Shown here in pieces: positions 32,176 through 32,940 of a stretch of DNA of 36,501 nt. Position 1 is the first letter of the stretch. The number at the start of each line of letters is the position of its first letter. The notes beneath the pieces are model-generated. The model was not told where the DNA came from. It saw nothing but the letters and a program-made list of their open reading frames with translations, and made no database searches. The position numbers were made by a program, and so were the translations under genes. Origin of the DNA: Microcaldota archaeon (GTDB lineage Archaea > Micrarchaeota > Micrarchaeia > Micrarchaeales > Micrarchaeaceae); assembly GCA_021827525.1 (NCBI GenBank), contig JAKAVJ010000004.1, positions 1 to 36,501 on the forward strand, written 5' to 3'.

Positions 32176-32508
32176 TCAATTTATGAGTTTCCTGTCCTTG
32201 AGCCTGCCTATGTCCATCAGGCTATACCTCCATACTATATCGCCCTTCTCATCGCCCTGCACTGCCCACGGCTTAACAAGCACCACGTCGTTGACCTTTA
32301 TCCAGAACTTCCTGCGGTACCTCCCCGGTATTGAGCATGTGCGCTCCTTGTTGTCTGTGCACATGACCACGAACCTGCTCGCCCCAGATATCTTCGTCAC
32401 TCTCCCAAGAACTTCGTTGTCCCTAGGCACCATCAGTGCGCTCTCTACTACCTCTCCGGGCTTTTTCGGCTTTCCGCCGCTTTGGCCATAACCTCTATTG
32501 TAACCTAT
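32176..32508 (-). CDS. eif1A: Translation initiation factor aIF1A, probable AUA start
   Basis: OB-fold factor that helps scanning and start selection on the small subunit. The core NEVLGRVTKISGASRFVVMCTDNKERTCSIPGRYRRKFWIKVNDVVLVKPWAVQGDEKGDIVWRYS is unmistakable. The ORF track starts at the ATG at 32433, but the same frame is open for 25 more codons and encodes a family-like Gly/Lys-rich tail (GYGQSGGKPKKPGEVVES) that precedes the VPRDNEVLG block in other aIF1A proteins. No ATG, GTG or TTG lies in that stretch. GGTGAT at 32512-32517 is placed 3 nt before an in-frame AUA (32506-32508), the spacing used by other genes here. I list the longer form (110 aa); the ATG form is 85 aa. Confidence 0.82.
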   Translation of the reverse strand: MGYNRGYGQSGGKPKKPGEVVESALMVPRDNEVLGRVTKISGASRFVVMCTDNKERTCSIPGRYRRKFWIKVNDVVLVKPWAVQGDEKGDIVWRYSLMDIGRLKDRKLIN

Positions 32509-32511
32509 GCA

Positions 32512-32517
32512 ATCACC
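32512..32517 (-). promoter_or_regulatory. Shine-Dalgarno GGTGAT that points to an AUA start
   Basis: On the minus strand GGTGAT directly follows the aIF2-beta stop and is followed by TGC ATA GGT in the aIF1A frame. It is 79 nt from the first ATG, far too distant to serve it. GTGAT or GGTGAT also lies 3 nt before the acdA TTG, the ftsZ ATG and the glutamate dehydrogenase ATG. Confidence 0.6.
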
Positions 32518-32520
32518 CTA

Positions 32521-32940
32521 TCAGTAGCTCTTGACACCGTATCTCGCTCCGCACGCCTCGCAGATGAGGTACATCATTCCCCTCCCTGCTGCCTCGAGAT
32601 GCGTATCGGGCTTGTGGCACTCCCTGCATATCACATATATCTCGAAATACCTCTTTATCCTCTTGTCGAGCTCGCCGTTCGAAAACTTTCCGCTTATTAC
32701 CATGCGCTGATCCTCGACGCTTACCGGCACTGCCAGCTCCTTGCTCACGTACTTCGCTATCTCCGACGGCTTCCTCCTTGCCTTGTCGGCAATGGCGTTT
32801 ATGTTGCGCACTATGGTCTTAGTCCCCTGCACGAACGAGTCTACGGTAGGTATTACGAAGTCCTCCTTCGATGCAGAGAGCTCTGGAGCCAACGAATACG
32901 CCCTGTCCAAGAGTTTAGTATATTCTTCATCTTTCATCAA
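32521..32940 (-). CDS. eif2B: Translation initiation factor aIF2 beta subunit
   Basis: Beta subunit of the trimeric factor that delivers initiator tRNA. The 139 residues have the N-terminal YTKLLDRAYSLAPEL helix, the central domain (FVIPTVDSFVQGTKTIVRNINAIADKARRKPSEIAKYVSKEL) and the C-terminal zinc ribbon CRECHKPDTHL...CEACGARYGVKSY with four cysteines. Two ATGs (32940 and 32937) are possible, preceded by AGGAAGA. A TATA-like TTTTATATC lies about 100 bp upstream. aIF1A follows 12-14 bp after the stop, an operon coupling two start-selection factors. Confidence 0.94.
   Translation of the reverse strand: MMKDEEYTKLLDRAYSLAPELSASKEDFVIPTVDSFVQGTKTIVRNINAIADKARRKPSEIAKYVSKELAVPVSVEDQRMVISGKFSNGELDKRIKRYFEIYVICRECHKPDTHLEAAGRGMMYLICEACGARYGVKSY

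Follow-up and report, generated by a model that had tools for sequence, protein, structure and literature searches.

The aIF1A gene described here most probably starts at an AUA codon through near-cognate initiation anchored by a Shine-Dalgarno (SD) motif, and it appears to be one case of a trait of the Micrarchaeaceae that also concerns TBP, RNase HII, Rrp4, an AbrB-like gene and others; we assign this reading a probability of roughly 0.86. At the level of sequence the comparison establishes an open frame, selection on the N-terminal tail, conserved position and spacing of the start, and a genome-wide enrichment of such codons. From this we infer that initiation takes place at AUA and inserts methionine.

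According to a review from 2021, non-canonical initiation had not yet been demonstrated in archaea (PMC8211752), and in the open literature, the coverage of which is incomplete, we found no relevant earlier report of such start codons in Micrarchaeota or in archaea. A set of near-cognate starts placed 5 nt after GGTG would be new for archaea, in the sense of not previously demonstrated. Starts at ACG and AUA that are conserved in essential genes would rank as strong candidates for non-canonical initiation in this domain, and they would correct the gene models of Micrarchaeaceae, as standard pipelines disallow ACG. The family would also offer a natural system to study how aIF1 and aIF1A set start-codon stringency, and the prediction is checkable in the cultured A_DKE co-culture.

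The aIF1A locus

The window, i.e. the whole stretch of 36,501 nt which was analysed, belongs to the genome labelled G000. The features of the locus are as follows.

32176..32508, minus strand: aIF1A coding sequence, 110 codons plus stop (PF01176, E 2.7e-21; NF003084)
32506..32508, minus strand: inferred AUA start codon of aIF1A, in frame, identical in G001 and G002
32512..32517, minus strand: Shine-Dalgarno motif GGTGAT; its GGTG ends 5 nt upstream of AUA, at the genome-wide spacing peak
32518..32520, minus strand: TAG stop in frame upstream of aIF1A, read from the sequence; TAA in G001 and G002
32434..32505, minus strand: N-terminal tail GYNRGYGQSGGKPKKPGEVVESAL, rich in Gly, Lys and Arg; dN/dS 0.028 against 0.035 for the core
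32431..32433, minus strand: first in-frame ATG, the rival start; kept only within the genus, and its use would lose the whole tail
32521..32937, minus strand: aIF2-beta, directly upstream of aIF1A in the same operon arrangement (PF01873, E 1.6e-29)

The order on the minus strand is thus TAG (32520-32518), GGT GAT TGC ATA (32508-32506) and, further downstream, ATG (32433-32431). A preliminary description of this DNA had reported an aIF1A frame that remains open over the 25 codons ahead of the first ATG. This agrees with the sequence, where neither the 25 codons from ATA to ATG nor the frame back to the upstream stop contains ATG, GTG or TTG. The Gly/Lys-rich tail with a GEVVES segment (GEIVES in the sister species), the GGTGAT 3 nt ahead of the in-frame AUA, and the location directly after aIF2-beta were likewise found as described, the interval between the aIF2-beta stop and the AUA being 12 nt. 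That the same geometry is common to other genes holds in a looser form: GGTG lies 5 nt upstream at several genes of the window, but the exact arrangement of GGTGAT, 3 nt and ATG occurs there only once.

The protein belongs to aIF1A by an OB-fold domain match above the curated cut-offs (PF01176, 75.4 bits against 30.2; NF003084, 102.2 against 91). It has an eIF1A-type basic tail of 25 residues under purifying selection ahead of the OB fold, which is part of the protein only with the AUA start. The duplex between GGTGAT and the anti-SD in the aIF1A leader has an energy of -10.9 kcal/mol, and GGTG is found before ATG most commonly at exactly 5 nt in G000 (41 of 465 ATG genes). The motif alone is weak evidence: the window contains two copies of GGTGATNNNATA, where 0.32 would be expected.

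Coding evidence for the tail

Two genomes, G001 (JAJZZN TL2-1.bin30) and G002 (JAJYTM DX2.bin12), represent separate species of the same genus as G000. In both, GGTGAT TGC ATA GGT TAC is unchanged and GGTGATTGCATA is kept. The preliminary description had proposed purifying selection on the upstream codons and conservation of the non-AUG codon in relatives as signs of a genuine start, and both are seen. Between G000 and G001 the 25 codons differ by seven synonymous and one nonsynonymous change, which gives a dN/dS of 0.028 for the tail and 0.035 for the core (P for at most one nonsynonymous change in eight = 1.6e-4). The codon at the start position is ATA in the three congeneric species and ATA or ATT in genomes of nine genera. 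The GGTGAT-ATA arrangement is therefore more than chance, because it is conserved in the sister species despite the eight changes between the tails of G000 and G001. In G027, which belongs to another genus, the alignment begins at the residue following its ATG, and this is the residue following ATA in G000; therefore the AUA of G000 occupies the position of a start codon. Judged by these comparisons it is very likely that translation of aIF1A starts at AUA 32508 and not at ATG 32433. The AUA start first proposed from this DNA alone is strongly supported by selection on the tail, by the sister species, by the homologous ATG in other genera and by the recurrence in nine genera.

A start at ATG 32433, with the 25 upstream codons as an untranslated leader, would be the choice of a gene caller, since this is the first canonical start. 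However, the supposed leader shows the evolution of a coding region (dN/dS 0.03), the ATG is specific for the lineage and its use would drop a basic tail that relatives starting at ATG possess, and no properly spaced SD precedes it, which makes this alternative very improbable. The chance that a sequencing or assembly error masks a canonical codon is practically negligible. G000 is indeed an incomplete MAG (69% complete), but ATA is found in three MAGs with differing synonymous changes, and ACG is found at TBP in the complete genome of the cultured strain A_DKE. As the cause of the whole pattern, such an error is already refuted by these sequences.

Start codons of aIF1A in the Micrarchaeaceae

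We read aIF1A starts at 109 distinct loci. Seventy-three of the genomes are Micrarchaeaceae (f1), including the cultured Ca. Micrarchaeum harzensis A_DKE (NZ_CP060530.1, G031). ATA or ATT stands at the aIF1A start position in 17 of these 73 genomes, distributed over nine of 26 genera, while their relatives have ATG; a canonical start codon, ATG or other, is present in 56, and ATG is the state of most members of the family. The near-cognate codons are located 5 or 6 nt downstream of the SD core, and the SD in register is of the GGTG, GTGAT or TGAT type. In ten of the 17 cases (g1, g11, g14, g19, g20) the tail is free of canonical codons. The other seven are not strict in this sense, and in G003, G018, G101 and G008 there is a TTG nearby, which lacks a properly spaced SD.

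Three genera comprise both states. G012 has ATA, with TGA in frame immediately upstream, and its sister G035 has ATG; within one genus G095 has ATA against ATG in G016 and G094, and within another G020, G090 and G093 have ATA against ATG in G092. Such swaps between ATG and ATA are seen inside g15 and g19, and ATT is used in g14. On a tree of aIF1A and aIF2-beta at least eight changes of the start state are needed, all of them within one fully supported clade. Outside the Micrarchaeaceae none of 35 loci from relatives has a near-cognate aIF1A start, and ATG, TTG or GTG is used instead.

Pairing with the anti-SD is stronger for the near-cognate aIF1A genes (mean -8.3 kcal/mol) than for those with ATG (mean -4.9 kcal/mol, p 3e-7), which is what compensation would predict. 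There is some bias in these means, since the SD had helped to select the near-cognate candidates, and the rows are also related.

Genome-wide census of positions after GGTG

The census comprised about 553 of 561 kb of G000, 312 kb of G018, 78 kb of G020 and about 750 kb of A_DKE (in the copy of the latter genome used here the 32 kb of G031:C1:480001-512000 read as N). Genes were our own calls based on codon usage, and the positions counted lie 5 nt after GGTG and at least eight codons ahead of the first canonical codon of the gene. At this spacing ATA, ATT, ATC or ACG is found at 16 of 32 positions against a null expectation of 8.8% (p=2e-9), some homologous genes being tallied more than once across genomes. 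For ACG alone the numbers are 6 of 32 against 0.8% (p 2e-7). The codons ATA, ATT, ATC and ACG, enriched as a group, are all one base off AUG, and AAG and AGG do not occur at any of the 32 positions. No comparable enrichment was found at the other spacings from 1 to 15 nt, the next lowest p being 0.016 at spacing 14. A control census of G039 from the sister family was noisy, with GC-rich antisense frames, and is therefore not proof of absence outside the Micrarchaeaceae. ATC follows GGTGAT at G000:C2:6095 (plus strand) and G031:C1:248109 (plus strand), 58 and 108 codons, respectively, before the first canonical codon.

TBP with its ACG is the best-conserved member of this putative start set. 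The arrangement of GGTG, 5 nt and ACG is present in about 31 of 39 Micrarchaeaceae genomes, with ATA in one. An in-frame stop lies immediately upstream of the ACG in seven genomes, and twelve have no in-frame canonical codon ahead of the TBP fold; among these is A_DKE, in which the frame upstream of the fold is free of ATG, GTG and TTG. The TBP genes of the sister family use ATG, with a single TTG. RNase HII has ATA with GGTG at 5 nt and a stop immediately upstream in G018, G101, G034, G011, G104 and G071, and ATA without a canonical alternative in G000, G001 and G002. Further members are Rrp4 at ATA, identified by profile search, and an AbrB-like gene at ATC, the name of which is derived from its sequence only. 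In A_DKE an exosome gene resembling Rrp42 is a further candidate, at ACG.

RNA editing could also yield AUG, from ACG by C-to-U and from AUA by A-to-I conversion, and in chloroplasts C-to-U editing does make start codons from ACG (noted in PMC9845219). Such editing would leave the AUU of the g14 aIF1A and the AUC starts unexplained and would require two chemistries, so that it is hardly credible here.

Proposed mechanism and regulation

We propose that the 30S subunit would be held through SD pairing of GGTGAT, by which the near-cognate triplet would come to lie in the P site at the spacing preferred in this lineage, and that the ordinary CAU initiator tRNA would accept the codon despite one mismatch. 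More speculatively, such a weak start may keep the output of these genes low or make it dependent on start-codon stringency via the level of aIF1 and aIF1A; regulation of this kind would be plausible.

An unusual initiator tRNA was considered as a cause and none was seen, the initiator tRNA having the CAU anticodon and the GGG/CCC anticodon stem of an ordinary one. Loss of the fidelity factor aIF1 was rejected as well, as the SUI1 family is present in 34 of 36 genomes. Archaeal aIF1 discriminates against non-canonical starts jointly with aIF1A (PMC6237735, PMC8211752), and R31, Y32 and K34 of its basic loop matter in P. abyssi (PMC6237735). Loop 1 of aIF1 (L354-L383) reads mostly KAKF[DN]K in Micrarchaeaceae and KKFRK in most of the sister family, and the aIF1 proteins of Micrarchaeaceae tend to lower PF01253 scores. 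The loop difference does not amount to evidence for lower fidelity; we take it as a lead to what might relax the choice of start codon. One could speculate further that a relaxed start rule, possibly due to changes in aIF1, applies to the whole lineage, and that ACG on TBP and AUA or AUU on aIF1A and RNase HII let stringency tune the transcription and translation machinery together, as a eukaryote-like near-cognate code anchored by the SD; this wider proposal is tentative and we consider it rather doubtful.

In bacteria infC, the gene of IF3, has an AUU start with autocontrol, the defining feature of which is feedback of the factor level on its own synthesis, abolished by mutation of the start to AUG. 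The aIF1A gene resembles it in having a rare non-AUG start on the gene of an initiation factor active in start selection, and differs in being archaeal, in using AUA or AUU compensated by the SD, in having ATG in close relatives and in sharing such starts with genes outside translation. The preliminary description had suggested an infC-type logic, in which AUA would act as a sensor through which initiation-factor activity sets aIF1A synthesis. This is compatible with SD-anchored near-cognate initiation. In its favour, comparative evidence places a non-AUG start on the gene of a start-selection factor, the feature recurs in nine genera, and aIF1 and aIF1A cooperate in start selection (PMC6237735). 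On the other hand, the rare codon is neither reserved to this gene nor stably kept, given the near-cognate starts of TBP, RNase HII and Rrp4 and the 56 of 73 Micrarchaeaceae genomes with a canonical aIF1A codon, and those family members in which aIF1 was read have ATG as the start of this gene. Moreover, basic residues of the yeast eIF1A tail promote suboptimal start codons, including near-cognate ones (PMC5756025), and the sign of any feedback may therefore be opposite to that of IF3. As aIF1A shares its AUA with other genes, the infC-like proposal is only partly supported: the non-AUG start stands, its specificity does not, and we regard such autoregulation as unlikely. Autoregulation of aIF1A only was rejected as the main explanation, as the census contains other near-cognate genes.

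Comparison with other systems

The closest functional analogues would be the AUU of infC and the eIF1 genes with poor start context. In eukaryotes eIF1, eIF5 and BZW are autoregulated through a poor start context, and near-cognate initiation is known. The Micrarchaeaceae starts share with these the one-mismatch codons ACG, AUA, AUU and AUC as well as the homologous aIF1/aIF1A/aIF2 machinery; they differ in that no long-range scanning is involved and a Shine-Dalgarno motif 5 nt away fixes the position. Archaeal GUG and UUG starts are similar as weaker codons with SD-dependent initiation, but they are standard and annotated, whereas ACG is outside NCBI table 11, and standard gene finders would therefore miss it. 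Chloroplasts possess conserved non-AUG starts on particular genes (PMC9845219), and this evolutionary conservation is the likeness to the Micrarchaeaceae; the chloroplast system is organellar and of bacterial type, the ACG and AUA of Micrarchaeaceae are archaeal.

Additional observations on ACG starts and TBP

G039 of the sister family appears to have ACG starts on a uS4-like gene (G039:C1:363489, plus strand; context GGTGTTTGA-ACG) and on a gene resembling the PolD large subunit (G039:C1:308952, minus strand; context GGTGAGTGA-ACG), both named by sequence resemblance. Isolated ACG starts are therefore not limited to Micrarchaeaceae. The ACG of uS4 is not a conserved feature, as a pattern search of 164 genomes of the order found it in G039 only.

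Two TBP loci deviate from ACG. L156 (G080) has ATA in its place, with TAA immediately upstream, and L171 (G092) has GCG 5 nt after GGTG where relatives have ACG, and no canonical start in frame; the GCG could be either an even weaker start or a sign of a different gene structure. The TBP of this order appears to have a single PF00352 repeat and 115 aa, against the usual two repeats (L100:1127-1471, minus strand; G000:C8:16240-16533; family loci L144-L173). Most Micrarchaeaceae genomes harbour two such single-repeat TBP genes, which are 47% identical in G000, and the sequences suggest a half-TBP that acts as a heterodimer or homodimer.
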